64,000 nucleotides of DNA from the NCBI RefSeq assembly GCF_018919265.1, contig NZ_JAHLQO010000001.1, positions 248,001 to 312,000 on the forward strand, given 5' to 3'. Origin of the DNA: Peptoniphilus ovalis. Its GTDB lineage: Bacteria; Bacillota; Clostridia; Tissierellales; Peptoniphilaceae. Under the pieces are notes generated by a model. That model did not search any database and had not been told where the DNA came from. It saw nothing but the letters and a program-made list of their open reading frames with translations. Below are positions 712 to 60,223 of the stretch, piece after piece; the stretch's first letter is position 1, and each line of letters begins with the position of its first letter. Made by a program: the position numbers and the translations under genes.

Positions 712-1134
712 ATGGATTACAGAAGATTTGGTAATAAAATTGTCGCAAGAATAGACAGAGGAGAAGAAGTTCAAGAAAAGTTAAAAGAGATTGCAGAAAA
801 GGAAAATATAAAGCTTGCAAGCATCTCTGGACTTGGTGCAACTGATGATTTTACAATTGGAGTTTATAAAGTAAATGATAAAAGCTACACAGAAAAGAAT
901 TTCAAGGGAATTTATGAAATCTTATCAATTATTGGAAGTATTTCCACAAAAGATGGAGAGTATTATCCGCATCTACACATCTCTGCAGCTGATGATAAGG
1001 GAAATGGCTTTGGCGGACATTTAATAAAATCACATATTAGCGTAACTTGTGAGCTTACTATTGATGTAATAGACGGAGTTGTTGAGAGAGAAATAAATGA
1101 AGAAACTGGATTAAATGTTTATAAATTTATTTAA
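712..1134 (+). CDS. PCC/DUF296 domain protein
   Basis: This 140-residue protein consists of one PCC (plants and prokaryotes conserved, DUF296) domain. It is recognised by the N-terminal segment on low-molecular-weight effector-like folds, the SGLGATD strand-loop, the PHLHISAADDKG histidine motif and GGHLIKS near residues 85–105. Bacterial stand-alone PCC proteins form trimers; the plant relatives carry AT-hooks and bind DNA, but no AT-hook is visible here, so DNA binding is not supported. The gene sits 3 bp behind the small membrane protein gene. It is the last gene before repeat copy 1, whose first base lies about 57 bp after its stop. The biochemical role is unknown. Confidence 0.85.
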   Translation: MDYRRFGNKIVARIDRGEEVQEKLKEIAEKENIKLASISGLGATDDFTIGVYKVNDKSYTEKNFKGIYEILSIIGSISTKDGEYYPHLHISAADDKGNGFGGHLIKSHISVTCELTIDVIDGVVEREINEETGLNVYKFI

Positions 1135-1190
1135 TTATAATTTTTTAATTTAATTTATCTAATTTATAAATTTTTAAAACTATTTTATTA

Positions 1191-1519
1191 TTTGGAGGGG
1201 CATTAGGACGTCTTGTAATGGACCTTTAATTGTAGTGAATCGAGTGACTGGTCACGAGATGAACGGTCTTCACAGTGAATCTGAACTAAGTGAAGATGAA
1301 CTGATGAAGAACCTTATGCATGCGAATATAAAAAAGCGACTGAATAAAGAGCTTTTTTAGATGAGTCGCGGCCCCTCCAAGCCTCCCCAAAACACCTTGA
1401 CGCTGCTGAAAGTTCAAAAAAATCGTCCATGCTAAATTTTCAAAACTCACTTCGTTCAAACAAGTTGAAAATTCTTAACGCTTAGACGATTTTTTTGTTA
1501 ATTATATGCAAAATTGCAA
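1191..1519 (+). repeat. Dispersed ~330-bp structured repeat, copy 1
   Basis: One of three near-identical elements in the window; the others are at 55173–55510 and 58346–58676, both inverted. It begins TTTGGAGGGGCATTAG and has a conserved body of about 190 bp. GGAGGGGC near 1194 can pair with GCCCCTCC near 1371, enclosing smaller hairpins: TCTTCAC (1267) with GTGAAGA (1290), and AAAAAAGC with GCTTTTTT near 1330–1358. A linker and a long A/T-flanked hairpin at 1416–1496 follow. The body is frame-interrupted between copies, so it is probably not coding. It lies downstream of, and in the same direction as, the PCC-domain gene. It fills most of the gap 1135–1606; I see nothing in 1520–1606. Confidence 0.9.
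1416..1496. terminator. Terminal hairpin of repeat copy 1 (bidirectional-terminator-like)
   Basis: An A-run at 1416–1422 leads into ATCGTCCATGC (1422–1432). This pairs with GCTTAGACGAT (1480–1490) with two mismatches and is followed by a T-run. An inner stem, ATTTTCAA with TTGAAAAT, is shared by all copies. The A-run/T-run flanks allow termination in both directions. The outer-stem sequence differs from copies 2 and 3 while pairing is kept. Confidence 0.75.
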
Positions 1520-1606
1520 ACCTCATTTATTTGAACACTTTAAAATAGTAGATAAATTCTCAGTAAGATTTTAAAGCCTATTCACTAAAATTGATATTAA
1601 AAATAT

Positions 1607-54726: not shown

Positions 54727-54774
54727 GAAAAATTTTAAAAAATTTGATAAAATATAAATATAGAGGTGAAGAAA

Positions 54775-55107
54775 GTGAATTTACCACATAATCATGGCGA
54801 TAATTTAAATAATTTTAAAAAAATAGAAGATAAAAAAGCAGTTGAGATTTCAGATGCTATGAAACAACTTGGAGACCCGTCAAGACTTCAAATATTTTGG
54901 CTACTTTGCCACAGAGAAGAATGCGTAATAAATATAGCAGCCTTTATGGATATGTCATCTCCTGCAGTAAGCCATCATTTGAGAGTATTAAAAATAGCAA
55001 ATCTTATAGAATCAAGACGTGAAGGAAAAGAAATGTTTTATCACGCAAAGGATAATGAACTTACTCACGCACTTTTAAATGCAACAATAGAATTATCTAA
55101 GATTTAA
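54775..55107 (+). CDS. ArsR/SmtB family metal-responsive repressor
   Basis: This 110-residue winged-helix protein has LGDPSRLQIFWLLCHREECV, the recognition helix SSPAVSHHLRVLKIANLIESRREGKE (split here for clarity as SSPAVSHHLRVLK and LIESRREGKE) and a metal-ligand-rich N-terminus (NLPHNHGDN). It likely represses itself and the divergent HMA–ATPase genes until zinc or cadmium binds. The start is placed at GTG 54775 because GAGGTG lies six bases upstream; an earlier GTG overlaps that site. Confidence 0.92.
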   Translation: MNLPHNHGDNLNNFKKIEDKKAVEISDAMKQLGDPSRLQIFWLLCHREECVINIAAFMDMSSPAVSHHLRVLKIANLIESRREGKEMFYHAKDNELTHALLNATIELSKI

Positions 55108-55172: not shown

Positions 55173-55510
55173 GCAATTATGTATAAAATAAGCAAAAAAA
55201 TTGGTCATGCGTAAAAAATTTTCAACTTGTTTGAGCGAGCGAAGCGAGTGAGTTTTGAAAATTTAGCATGACCGATTTTTTTGGACTTACCAGTGCGTCG
55301 TGGGGTGTTTTGGGGTGGCTTGGAGGGGCCGCGATTCATGTAAAAAAGCTCTTTATTCAGTCGCTTTTTTACATTCGCATGCATAAGGTTCTTCATCAGT
55401 TCATCTTCACTTCGTTCAGATTCACTGTGAAGACCGCTCATCTCGTGACCAGTCACTCGATTCACTACCATTAAAGGTCGATTACAAGACGCCACTAATG
55501 CCCCTCCAAA
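55173..55510 (-). repeat. Dispersed ~330-bp structured repeat, copy 2
   Basis: This copy reads right to left, starting TTTGGAGGGGCATTAG at 55510. It lies 68 bp beyond the stop of the amino-acid permease gene, in the same direction. The body matches copies 1 and 3 nearly base for base, including GTGACTGGTCAC and the AAAAAAGC…GCTTTTTT stem. Here the body happens to be an open frame of 96 codons, but copy 1 has TAG and copy 3 TAA in that frame. It fills most of the gap 55108–55577. Confidence 0.9.
55194..55282. terminator. Terminal hairpin of repeat copy 2
   Basis: On the minus strand, an A-run leads to ATCGGTCATGC, which pairs with GCATGACCAAT with one mismatch, then a T-run. The inner stem is the shared ATTTTCAA…TTGAAAAT. 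The loop has an extra GAGC-type insertion compared with copy 3. Confidence 0.8.
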
Positions 55511-55577: not shown

Positions 55578-57035
55578 TTAAGCTTTATTATAAAACTTAA
55601 TAAACAACCCACCTAATACTAACCACACAAAGAAAATAATAAGTGCAGTGTTACCCATATAAGATGGTGCAAATGGTATAAATGTTGATATTACAATAAT
55701 AGCTGAAATTAATATTGCAAGATAAATTGTAAATTTTCCTCCAGGTGTGACAAAAGATGTATAATAATCCTTGTCTTTTTTTATTATTACAATTAATGAT
55801 GTACAAGTTAAAAACCAACCAATTACAAAGGCAACAGAGCCAAGATTTGTAAGTGGGTCTATAAATTTAATTCCAACAAAAGGTCCAATTGCTGCAAATA
55901 TTAAACAAAATAATAGAGCAGTAACTGGAGTGTTATACTCTGCATGTTCGTGTGAAAACATAGAAGGAATCAAATTACTTTTACTCATTGACTGAATTAA
56001 TTTTGCAGAAGCCATAAACATTCCATTCCATGTGGAGAAAAGTCCTGCAACTGTACCTATTACAATGAGTTTATCTAGTACATATCCAAAAGTTCCACCA
56101 TAGGCAGCTTCAAGCATTACACCCATTGCAGGCGGTGCTGCAAGTGAATACTCCTTCCAATTTCCAACAGATCCTGTTGAAATAATTACAAGAGAATAAA
56201 ATATTCCTGCTGCTACAATTGAAAGCACCATGGATATTGCTACGTTTTTAAATTTTTTATTCTCTGCAGTTTCTTCAACAGATTGAGCAATTGTGTCAAA
56301 TCCTGACATAAAAAATGGTACTACTACAATTATCCCAATCATTCCACCGAAGAATCCGCTGTGAGTTCCCACACCTACATTTTCATAAACTGGCTTTAAG
56401 TTTTCAACATCCCCTGCAATAAATGAGAAAATAATTACTAAAACACCAGTTATTATAATAAGTATTGATAAAAATGACTGGAGCTTTGAAGCAAATGTTG
56501 AGCCCTTAAAATTAATAAAAAATAAAGCGGCTGCAAGTATAAGTCCCAAAACTATTGATGAAAGTGTGATTGCTTCGCCACCTACATAATATAAAACTCT
56601 AGAATCTGATAGTGCTGGAAAAATATCTGTAATTATAGTGTTGATATAAATTGCTTCCCAAGGGAGAATTGTAAGATATGCCAATGCCAAAAACCACGAA
56701 GACATAAAAGATAATTTATTTCCAAAGGCTTTTTCAGTGTAGACCATTACTCCTCCACCCTTTGGAAGAGTCGCCAAAAGTTCGCCATGGCATAGTCCAA
56801 TAGGCACCAGTAAAAGTGTGGCGAGAAGAAAACCAATAAAAGCAGGAATTGGTCCTCCAGCTTGTGCAATCCAGTGATTAGATGACACTGCCCATCCAAC
56901 TCCAACCATGGAGCCAAAGCCAAGCATGAAAAAATCTAAATATCCCATGTCGCCCTGTTTTCTGTTCTGTCTAATTTTTAGAATGTTTTTAATATTGGGG
57001 AAGTTTTTCTTATTCCCTCTTTTTGCTTTTCCCAT
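55578..57035 (-). CDS. APC-superfamily amino-acid permease
   Basis: This 485-residue, ~12-helix transporter has the helix-1 motif FMLGFGSMVGVGWAVSSNHW with the glycine-rich break used for substrate binding, and LPKGGGVMVYTEKAFG. It probably imports or exchanges an amino acid; the specific one cannot be read. The start ATG at 57035 has GAGGTG upstream. A terminator separates it from the upstream glycerol-dehydrogenase-like gene. Repeat copy 2 lies in its 3' region. Confidence 0.9.
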   Translation of the reverse strand: MGKAKRGNKKNFPNIKNILKIRQNRKQGDMGYLDFFMLGFGSMVGVGWAVSSNHWIAQAGGPIPAFIGFLLATLLLVPIGLCHGELLATLPKGGGVMVYTEKAFGNKLSFMSSWFLALAYLTILPWEAIYINTIITDIFPALSDSRVLYYVGGEAITLSSIVLGLILAAALFFINFKGSTFASKLQSFLSILIIITGVLVIIFSFIAGDVENLKPVYENVGVGTHSGFFGGMIGIIVVVPFFMSGFDTIAQSVEETAENKKFKNVAISMVLSIVAAGIFYSLVIISTGSVGNWKEYSLAAPPAMGVMLEAAYGGTFGYVLDKLIVIGTVAGLFSTWNGMFMASAKLIQSMSKSNLIPSMFSHEHAEYNTPVTALLFCLIFAAIGPFVGIKFIDPLTNLGSVAFVIGWFLTCTSLIVIIKKDKDYYTSFVTPGGKFTIYLAILISAIIVISTFIPFAPSYMGNTALIIFFVWLVLGGLFIKFYNKA

Positions 57036-58345: not shown

Positions 58346-58676
58346 TTTGCAATTTTGTATAAAATAAGCAAAAATAATTCCCTTGCGTTAAAAATTTTCA
58401 ACTTGTTTGAGCGAAGCGAGTTTTGAAAATTTAGCAAGGGTATTATTTTTGGACTTTCAGTGCGTGTGGGGTGTTTTGGGGTGGCTTGGAGGGGCCGCGA
58501 CTCATCTAAAAAAGCTCTTTATTCAGTCGCTTTTTTACATTCGCATGCATAAGGTTCTTCATCAGTTAATCTTCACTTAGTTCAGATTCACTGTGAAGAC
58601 CGTTCATCTCGAGACCAGTCACTCGATTCACTACCATTAAAGGGGCATTACAAGACGCCCCTAATGCCCCTCCAAA
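58346..58676 (-). repeat. Dispersed ~330-bp structured repeat, copy 3
   Basis: This copy reads right to left from 58676, 57 bp after the stop of glpK and in the same direction. It starts TTTGGAGGGGCATTAG. A further local stem, AGGGGC…GCCCCT, is formed within its first 35 bases. It fills most of the gap 58205–58732; the remainder is AT-rich with a probable promoter for the dehydrogenase gene. Confidence 0.9.
58370..58450. terminator. Terminal hairpin of repeat copy 3
   Basis: On the minus strand AATACCCTTGC pairs with GCAAGGGAATT with one mismatch, between A-rich and T-rich runs. The inner stem ATTTTCAA…TTGAAAAT is as in the other copies. The variable positions (ACCCTT/AAGGG) differ from copy 2 (GGTCAT/ATGACC) on both arms. 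Confidence 0.8.
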
Positions 58677-58732: not shown

Positions 58733-60223
58733 TTACTTTGCCCAATTTTTTGAATATTCTATAGCTTCATGCCATCTCTTCATTTTTTTATTTCTTGTTT
58801 CTTCATCCATTTCTGAAATAAAAACTCTATCTACATCTGTTTTTTCTCTAAGTTCTTCTTTATCTTTCCAAAATCCAACAGAAAGTCCTGCCATATAGCA
58901 TGCACCCAAAGCTGTAAGTTCTACAAGTTTTGGTCTTTTGACCTCAACATCAACTATATCTGATAAAAAAGACATCAAGAAATTATTTTTGCTCACGCCG
59001 CCATCTGCTTTTAATGATTTTAATTTTGTGTTTGAATCTTCTTCCATTGCATTGATTACATCTGCTGAAAGATAGGCAAGAGACTCAAGTGCTGCCCTAA
59101 CTATGTGGTATTTGCTAACAGATGCAGTCAGTCCAATTATTGCTCCTCTTGCGTATTGATCCCAATATGGTGCACCAAGTCCTGTAAATGCTGGTATAAA
59201 GTAGACATCTTCAGTATCATTTACCTTGCTTGCCATGTATTCTGAATCATCAGCCTGGTCGATTATTCTGAGATTATCTCTTAGAAAATCTATTGCAGAT
59301 CCTGCTTCAAATATTGATCCTTCAAGTGCGTAGGTTATCTTTCCGTCAATTGCCCATGCAATTGTAGAAACAAGTCCATTTTTTGATTGCACAAGTTCCT
59401 TTCCAGTATTCATCAAAATAAATGCGCCAGTTCCATAAGTTGCCTTTGCAAGTCCTCTCTCAAAGGAAGCAGTTCCAAAAAGTGAAGATTGCTGGTCGCC
59501 TATTGCAGATGAAATTGGAATTTCGCATCCCAAATATTTTGATTTACTGTGTCCATAAACTTCACTTGAATTTCTAATTTCAGGAAGCATTGACTTAGGG
59601 ATTTTAAAAAGTTCTAGGAGTTCATCATCCCATTTATTTTCGTTAATATTAAAAAGCATAGTTCTTGAAGCGTTGGTGTAGTCTGTGATGTGGACTTCGC
59701 CATCTGTTAATTTATAAATCAAATAACTTTCAACTGTGCCAAATAATAGCTCACCCTTTTCTGCCTTTTCTCTTGCACCTTCAACATTTTCAAGTATCCA
59801 TCTGATTTTTGTAGCAGAAAAATATGGGTCGATTACAAGTCCAGTTTTATCTTCAATCATTTTGCCATAGCCTTTATTTTTTAGCTCCTCGCAATAATCA
59901 GCAGTTCTCTTACATTGCCAGACAATTGCGTTATAAATCGGGTCCCCTGTATTTTTGTCCCACACAATTGTAGTTTCTCTTTGGTTGGAGATTCCAATTG
60001 CAGCAATTTCCTTTGGGTCAATATCTTTTTTAATCATCGCTTCTACTGCAGTACCAATTTGCTTTGACCATAAATCTTCTGGCTCTTCCTCAACATAGCC
60101 AGGCTTTGGAAAGTGCTTGATTAAGTCCCTTTGTGCCATAGAGACGATATCTGCGTTTTTATCAAAAATTATAGTTCTAGCAGAAGTAGTTCCTGCATCA
60201 AATGCCATTATGTATTTTTTCAT
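58733..60223 (-). CDS. glpK: Glycerol kinase
   Basis: This 496-residue FGGY-family kinase has the N-terminal ATPase motif MAFDAGTTSARTIIFD, SNQRETTIVWD, the ATYGTGAFILMNTG segment, GLGAPYWDQYARGAIIGLT, and a C-terminal KADGGVSKNNFLM. It phosphorylates glycerol to glycerol-3-phosphate in the cytosol. It stands alone here; a glycerol facilitator or G3P dehydrogenase is not adjacent. Repeat copy 3 follows it and may terminate its transcript. Confidence 0.97.
   Translation of the reverse strand: MKKYIMAFDAGTTSARTIIFDKNADIVSMAQRDLIKHFPKPGYVEEEPEDLWSKQIGTAVEAMIKKDIDPKEIAAIGISNQRETTIVWDKNTGDPIYNAIVWQCKRTADYCEELKNKGYGKMIEDKTGLVIDPYFSATKIRWILENVEGAREKAEKGELLFGTVESYLIYKLTDGEVHITDYTNASRTMLFNINENKWDDELLELFKIPKSMLPEIRNSSEVYGHSKSKYLGCEIPISSAIGDQQSSLFGTASFERGLAKATYGTGAFILMNTGKELVQSKNGLVSTIAWAIDGKITYALEGSIFEAGSAIDFLRDNLRIIDQADDSEYMASKVNDTEDVYFIPAFTGLGAPYWDQYARGAIIGLTASVSKYHIVRAALESLAYLSADVINAMEEDSNTKLKSLKADGGVSKNNFLMSFLSDIVDVEVKRPKLVELTALGACYMAGLSVGFWKDKEELREKTDVDRVFISEMDEETRNKKMKRWHEAIEYSKNWAK

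Follow-up and report, generated by a model that had tools for sequence, protein, structure and literature searches.

A three-copy repeat of Peptoniphilus ovalis is a composite of a palindromic frame and an inserted, structured element that recurs in Peptoniphilaceae, often at gene 3' ends

REP sequences positioned near stop codons can stall ribosomes. In a review, REPs (20–40 bp) and BIMEs are described as dispersed palindromic repeats that lie close to the 3' ends of genes, commonly where the neighbours converge or run in one direction, and that at times supply the stop codon (Di Nocera 2013, PMC3733652). A 2024 survey of 50 bacterial genomes set apart a class of mobile/repeat candidates; it depicts one of them, MRSC-65-2, as a single long stem with more than 20,000 representatives in several phyla, and describes mobile/repeat motifs as often tied to transposases or inconsistently oriented (PMC11109978). 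Peptoniphilus, Anaerococcus, Finegoldia and Parvimonas do not occur in its main text (PMC11109978). Group IIC introns insert past intrinsic terminators (PMC4424553). In what follows, we compare with these systems a repeat from a 64,000-nucleotide stretch of the P. ovalis genome (the window), with genes called as plain ORFs throughout.

The initial annotation had described a single structured element of about 330 bp in three copies, and the copies are indeed present where it placed them and on the strands it gave (Table 1), with pairwise identities of 92.0, 92.3 and 94.5% (325 aligned bases per pair). When copy 1 is searched against its own genome, the other two are retrieved at E = 1.2e-123 and 5.1e-117. 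Each begins, as had been claimed, shortly past a same-strand stop codon: 56 nt past that of the PCC-domain ORF (copy 1), 67 nt past that of the permease ORF (copy 2) and 56 nt past the glpK stop (58733-58735, -; copy 3). All three fold better than shuffled sequence (z of -4.2, -5.5 and -5.2), and their 200-bp outer flanks resemble one another no more than 100 shuffles do in five of six comparisons, the sixth scoring 32 against a shuffle maximum of 31. Plasmid and phage collections gave no match to window positions 1186-1522. Copies 1 and 2 lie between convergent ORFs (the second members being 1607-2014 and 54766-55107, respectively), such that an upstream same-strand gene is automatic for both and the glpK copy is the sole informative one.

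Table 1. Make-up of the three composite copies and their upstream genes in the window
Feature	Position	Strand	Basis
Copy 1, whole (329 bp)	1191..1519	+	
Copy 1 left F: TTTGGAGGGGC arm and inner hairpin ending CCTTT	1191..1227	+	sequence comparison of copies
Copy 1 element B, 142 nt, three hairpins	1228..1369	+	R2 (B model) match L001:1579-1720
Copy 1 right F: GCCCCTCCAA arm, C-rich linker, terminator-like hairpin, tail	1371..1519	+	R1 match 1372-1509
Copy 1 terminator-like hairpin arms, A7/T7	1415-1432 and 1480-1497	+	
Copy 2, whole (338 bp)	55173..55510	-	
Copy 2 left F	55473..55510	-	copy comparison
Copy 2 element B	55331..55472	-	R2 match L003:1659-1800
Copy 2 right F	55173..55329	-	R1 match 55181-55328
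Copy 3, whole (331 bp)	58346..58676	-	
Copy 3 left F	58639..58676	-	copy comparison
Copy 3 element B	58497..58638	-	R2 match L002:1652-1793; empty site L008 lacks exactly this stretch and one G
Copy 3 right F	58346..58495	-	R1 match 58357-58494
PCC-domain gene 5' of copy 1	712..1134	+	name from first reading of sequence; no NCBIfam match
Amino-acid permease 5' of copy 2	55578..57035	-	family matches under curated cut-offs

What did not survive the genome search is the notion of one element with a nearly invariant body. The search returned 40 pieces, corresponding to left F, right F and middle B parts that occur separately, from which the composite nature of the repeat emerged: it is built of two repeat families, a frame (F) and an inserted element (B), both more numerous in the genome (19 F-type matches and at least 24 B matches) than the three copies. 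Of the supposedly invariant body, 143 nt are insert, i.e., B and one ambiguous G (at 1370 in copy 1) that is assignable to B or to its target. When a terminator-like repeat and a folded element nest in this way, the annotation of repeats and of RNAs goes astray.

A natural empty site (L008), some 260 kb from copy 3, carries F without B, with 181 of 183 aligned flank bases identical to copy 3. The two differ by small gaps in the linker and second hairpin, none of which falls within 30 nt either side of the junction of CCTTT and GCCCC; at that junction, copy 3 carries the 143 nt, AATGG...GTCGCG. The junction is clean and no target bases are duplicated at this single empty site, so the insertion of B was exact. 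The reported lack of a target duplication and of terminal inverted repeats was thus borne out, with no repeats of the MITE type seen at the ends of B or of the composite (repeat search on copy 1, by eye). Compared with the B of copy 3, that of copy 1 has 97.2% identity and that of copy 2 has 95.8%, the next-best long matches being at 81-83%. We infer that one insertion of B into F, followed by copying of the composite to three places, fits these data best. On the 3' side of glpK in 13 other genomes of the genus (620 nt each), no such element was found.

Frame F comprises a GGAGGGG...CCCCTCC hairpin, the arms of which alternate with AAGGAGGGGG/CCCCCTCCTT, a C-rich linker (CCACCCC...), and a second hairpin in which A7 and T7 enclose a stem and a loop module, TAAATTTTCAAAACTC...GTTGAAAATTT. 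A model of its right half has 65 matches in 10 of the 14 genus genomes, of which 19 are in P. ovalis; these counts include a sister frame, F2, and one element split in two. The 19 matches amount to 18 places. F2 (GGGAAGGGGC/GCCCCTTCCC; L016, L021, L022, L058) has a different first hairpin and linker (CCTGGCAGGGGCCCGACCCGTTAATACGC) and the same loop module. Across 24 copies of the second F hairpin, double changes occur at 6 of 22 pairs, the loop module is nearly invariant, and the wobble pairs (G-T 0, C-A 16) lean to the strand opposite to that of B. Fourteen of the 18 P. ovalis places are convergent, three antisense codirectional, one sense codirectional and none divergent; convergent regions make up 15.5% of intergenic bases (binomial p about 1e-8), a background drawn from the one 64-kb window, in which one ORF (55205-55495) is spurious. 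Codirectional places among all 65 F/F2 matches are split evenly, with 15 sense and 15 antisense. F, a palindromic repeat of the genus, has the feature of a bidirectional terminator, an A-run/T-run hairpin between convergent genes. It shows no strand preference and, judging by its sequence and placement, most likely ends transcription from both sides where genes converge.

Nesting within hairpins recurs around F. At L004, L006 and L007, the first F hairpin holds another insert of about 85 nt (GATGAAGCCCTAGCC...CGGCTCGTCC) where B would be, while at L018, L009 and L056 a loop module of a terminator-like hairpin holds a long palindromic insert (GACCTAACTC...AGGTCAG), again at the apex. F and F2 are dispersed in P. 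ovalis; in relatives they cluster in stretches of 10-20 kb (G002:C1:1417-1430 kb, G004:C5:903-920 kb, G013:C2:691-702 kb, G012:C9:114-131 kb), where some copies form inverted pairs with only a few hundred bases between them. Integron-like or phage cargo was considered and rejected: three loci of the clusters in relatives resemble ordinary chromosome, and the plasmid and phage collections, as noted, did not match copy 1.

Element B is 138-144 nt long, runs from AATGG to GTCGN and forms three hairpins. For 20 units aligned with MAFFT, 29 of 40 predicted pairs display compensatory double changes, 97.5% of cells pair compared with 77.3% in shuffles, and the covariation score is 0.565 compared with 0.178 for shuffled and 0.044-0.078 for slid alignments. 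The copies at groEL alone (11 genomes) give 46 pairs with double changes at 32. The compensatory changes thus exceed the controls, as expected of a structured nucleic acid under selection, and we read B as such. Hairpins 1 and 2 contain tandem G-A internal loops, in place of which some copies have ordinary base pairs. GCGACTGAA..A.GGAGC is common to the loops of hairpins 2 and 3. By eye, hairpin 3 offers candidate pseudoknots (loop GACT with AGTC; TTATNCAG with CTGNATAA). Its 5' arm contains a structured insert of about 80-100 nt in L245 and in the second units of L217 and L219, a third level of nesting, and a longer insert in L196. Coding was rejected for B, since each of the six frames is interrupted by stops in 14-20 of the 20 units, as was a hammerhead suggested by CUGAUGA, since matching stems are absent by eye and Rfam gave no match.

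The earlier statement that no known RNA family fits also held, for no Rfam 15 family covers B: the whole window yielded no match; 411 bases searched up to an E value of 5 yielded three, all far under gathering; and ten B loci yielded one, SpR18, outside B. That match (SpR18_sRNA, 86.1 bits; gathering 60) lies at L229 1703-1828 (+), just past a B copy at the guaA end. B copies with the head AATGGGAGTAA are also found elsewhere past a shared sequence, TTTGGAAAAGAAG, and may be remnants of islands that integrated at guaA.

Several comparisons bear on which strand of B is the folded one. In a model-fitted alignment of 130 copies, G-T outnumbers C-A by 209 to 57 in 4,533 cells, in a fit that itself favours G-T; among 58 copies from other genera, the counts are 112 and 18, with one pair supplying 26 of the 112. 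On the MAFFT alignment, for which pairs were predicted on both strands, they are 17 and 6, and a strand-symmetric choice of columns, which lets in non-nesting columns, gives 15 and 16. In all 20 units the plus strand folds better than the minus, although a single additional pair forms in the minus-strand fold, where it is G-U; the plus strand has C-A at that place in every one of the 20. Taken together with the sense bias described below, these strand data point to RNA: most likely it is the plus strand that folds and functions, as RNA. Plus-strand single-stranded DNA would yield the same wobble bias.

With a covariance model, B is found in at least 26 of 130 Peptoniphilaceae genomes and at least five of 39 genera (best 24 candidates scored per genome), P. 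ovalis having the most matches of any genome (at least 24, among the best 24 candidates scored). Across 249 genomes of the order, at least 24 have B, all of them Peptoniphilaceae (best 12 candidates scored per genome). The TTTAATGGTAG pattern occurs 29 times in P. ovalis compared with 4 for its reverse, and 0-6 compared with 1-7 times in 13 relatives; 3 of the 29 sites look coding by eye. B heads in other lineages read AATGATAAG or AATGGGAG. Within the part of the matching literature that was covered, a search on Peptoniphilus, Finegoldia or Anaerococcus repeats, palindromes and RNAs found nothing on B or F.

Once arrays are collapsed, 130 B hits reduce to 97 sites. At 34 of these, in 13 gene families (two weak), the B 5' end is 20 nt or less from a same-strand stop codon, and at 12 of the 34 the stop overlaps the first two B bases (T followed by the AA of B; TGA once). 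The B 3' end comes as close (20 nt or less) to an opposite-strand stop at 6 of 97 sites (four at hisS, two at doubtful ORFs), and a divergent ORF starts at the B 5' end at 7 of 97. Where both neighbours are clear genes (77 sites), the arrangements are ++ 28, -- 8, +- 30 and -+ 11. The idea of a structured, spreading element with a preference for the 3' ends of same-strand genes, which the initial annotation had attached to the whole repeat, therefore largely holds for B (28 vs 8 codirectional sites) and fails for F, the orientation of which relative to flanking genes is random genome-wide. Eight codirectional and 11 divergent-type B sites clash with a sense 3' UTR.

At the groEL stop, B is present in all 11 B-bearing genus genomes, with degenerate or interrupted copies in G001 and G007. 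Loci of groEL were obtained for 30 of 58 genomes; in 27 relatives without a groEL B, other sequence follows the stop, mostly a plain terminator by eye, with one read ending at a contig end. Several species have additional B units and terminators downstream of the groEL copy. Other genes abutted by B include those for dnaK, glucose-6-phosphate isomerase, L19, GMP synthase, rubrerythrin and an AbgT-type transporter, and no function is common to the host genes. At the S20, S9, L1 and LrgB-type genes, B lies some 30-70 nt past the stop, beyond the terminator. In P. ovalis, a hairpin of at least -8 kcal/mol stability stands immediately before 10 of 29 TTTAATGGTAG sites, compared with 8 of 400 control TTTAA sites, and 8 of those 10 have a T-run of 5-8. 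Many P. ovalis copies are thus past, not before, a terminator and would be transcribed only by read-through. At hisS, an antisense B sits within a direct repeat of about 214 bp that duplicates the last hisS codons (L012 ~1400-1900; G000:C5 ~111.6-112.1 kb), and antisense B copies beside hisS are also present in four relatives (L049, L054, L216, L242).

The search for an enzyme that could mobilise B or F was one for the Y1 family. It met no transposase gene flanked by F ends, in keeping with what had been claimed of the repeat, and did find two REP-type (RAYT-like) tyrosine transposase genes elsewhere in P. ovalis, above the Pfam cut-off and below that of NCBIfam. These (L059 1465-2031 and L060 1303-1869; G000:C2 ~93.9 kb and C5 ~243.6 kb) lie inside arrays of GGGACAGTCC/GGGGCTGTCC repeats, which agree with the TIRYT motif GGGGWSAS. 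A homologue occupies a similar array in G006 (L090). TTTAATGGTAG heads lie at C5:244218 and 244960, beside the transposase gene at C5:243433-243981; neither L059 nor L060 is matched by the B model, and the copies next to the transposase genes have only the head in common with B. Homologues of one transposase protein were found in 11 of 130 genomes, being one of the 26 with B and ten without, a distribution that, for this one query protein, rules out a RAYT as the general driver of B. A PF01797 (Y1) match is present in 13 of 14 genus genomes, mostly strong and of IS200 type. Among the genus genomes that carry B, G009 alone lacks any Y1 match; the rest have some, mostly of IS200 type, and for most genomes an IS200-type enzyme may be the driver of B. 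A literature search on RAYT in Firmicutes and Clostridia found nothing.

The account that we tentatively favour, at somewhat less than even confidence, has F as a bidirectional terminator repeat and B as a mobile, RNA-folded element that inserts at 3' ends and acts in a REP-like manner in the 3' UTR, with the composite copied to three places. B would insert just past T-rich 3' ends, be these stop codons or the T-run of intrinsic terminators; at groEL-like sites it would come to lie, from the sequence order there, between the stop codon and the terminator, within the 3' UTR. Its fold would most likely act as a REP sequence does, by analogy either shielding the mRNA 3' end or slowing translation termination. 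In P. ovalis, one B would have landed past the inner hairpin and TTT of an F, after which the composite would have been copied to its three places. Possible, though doubtful, is that B is instead a purely selfish single-stranded-DNA element, with hairpins recognised by a trans-acting enzyme, gene-end placement arising from a T-rich target and tolerance, and no role for the RNA. Y1/HuH elements insert exactly and without target duplication, as B did in F, and the jumps in copy number between relatives, the tandem arrays, the occurrence of B sites in both orientations and the many IS200-type Y1 matches in the genus would all suit such an element; the constancy of the groEL copy, with its fold kept by compensatory changes, and the Y1-free genome with B argue against it, and the sense bias would require a strand-specific target. 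An unlikely further reading would place B in an undescribed class of short, protein-free structured RNAs, which would spread via an RNA intermediate and a borrowed enzyme, their 5' end being joined to transcript 3' ends at the stop codon or past the terminator T-run, and which would later have been kept behind groEL and other housekeeping genes as a 3'-UTR control.

Very unlikely, in our estimation, is that B is a GTAG REP moved by the P. ovalis REP-type (RAYT/TIRYT) tyrosine transposase. GTAG does directly precede hairpin 1 in most P. ovalis copies, TTTAATGGTAG does lie beside one of the two RAYT-like genes and this genome does have the most B matches; yet homologues of the one protein searched are nearly confined to genomes without B, the copies beside the transposase genes are heads only, the heads of other lineages differ, and the transposases lie amid repeats that carry the motif of TIRYTs. 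There is likewise little to commend the view that housekeeping genes have in B a fixed cis-regulator or small RNA, inherited vertically and multiplied by duplication, without transposition. This would explain its strong covariation and its sharing of one place, at groEL (11 genomes) and next to hisS (5), but sits poorly with some 20 or more B copies at unrelated P. ovalis places, with the insertion into F and with host genes of no common function. Scarcely tenable is the whole 330-bp unit as a single non-coding RNA or MITE: its three near-identical copies and strong overall fold are set against F and B each occurring alone (16 of 19 F-type matches in P. ovalis lack B, and the composite accounts for 3 of at least 24 B matches) and the absence of any single match spanning both parts in 13 other Peptoniphilus genomes, and the exact empty site at L008 already largely refutes it. 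With its covarying fold over five genera, its fixed place behind groEL in 11 genomes and one clean natural insertion, B opens two questions to testing: what moves a short structured element that has no transposase of its own, and whether such an insert determines how long the mRNAs of chaperones and ribosomal proteins last or how they are translated.

How, then, do F and B compare with the described systems? F resembles bidirectional intrinsic terminators in its A7...T7-flanked hairpin and its mostly convergent placement in P. ovalis, and differs from them in recurring at dispersed places, in the near-constancy of its loop module and in its nested inserts. Insertion 3' of terminators, as in group IIC introns, applies to a third of the B sites tested in P. 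ovalis, many other B sites being at stop codons; unlike these introns, B is some 142 nt long, lacks a protein gene and has no Rfam match. GTAG REPs, the closest of these systems in behaviour, are like B in being dispersed at gene 3' ends, in supplying stop codons and in forming arrays, and unlike it in their size of 20-40 bp, against about 142 nt, three hairpins and covariation over five genera (PMC3733652). Nor does B show their RAYT association, with a homologue of the one query protein in 1 of 26 B genomes. By eye, 18 of 20 units (A2) have GTAG or GTGG 0-2 nt before the hairpin, in the form AATGGTAG or AATTGTAG and with the eighth base a G; of the remaining two, one has GTAA. Other lineages have AATGATAAG or AATGGGAG here. 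B behaves like a REP without being one on the features tested, and is best read as a mobile 3'-UTR fold of an undescribed family. With the mobile/repeat candidates, B shares a covarying fold, many copies per genome and a possible nature as DNA or RNA; from MRSC-65-2 it differs in having three hairpins and in its confinement to one family, and from the often inconsistently oriented motifs of this class in its mostly sense orientation (PMC11109978). The survey's mobile/repeat class is the nearest published label for B (PMC11109978).
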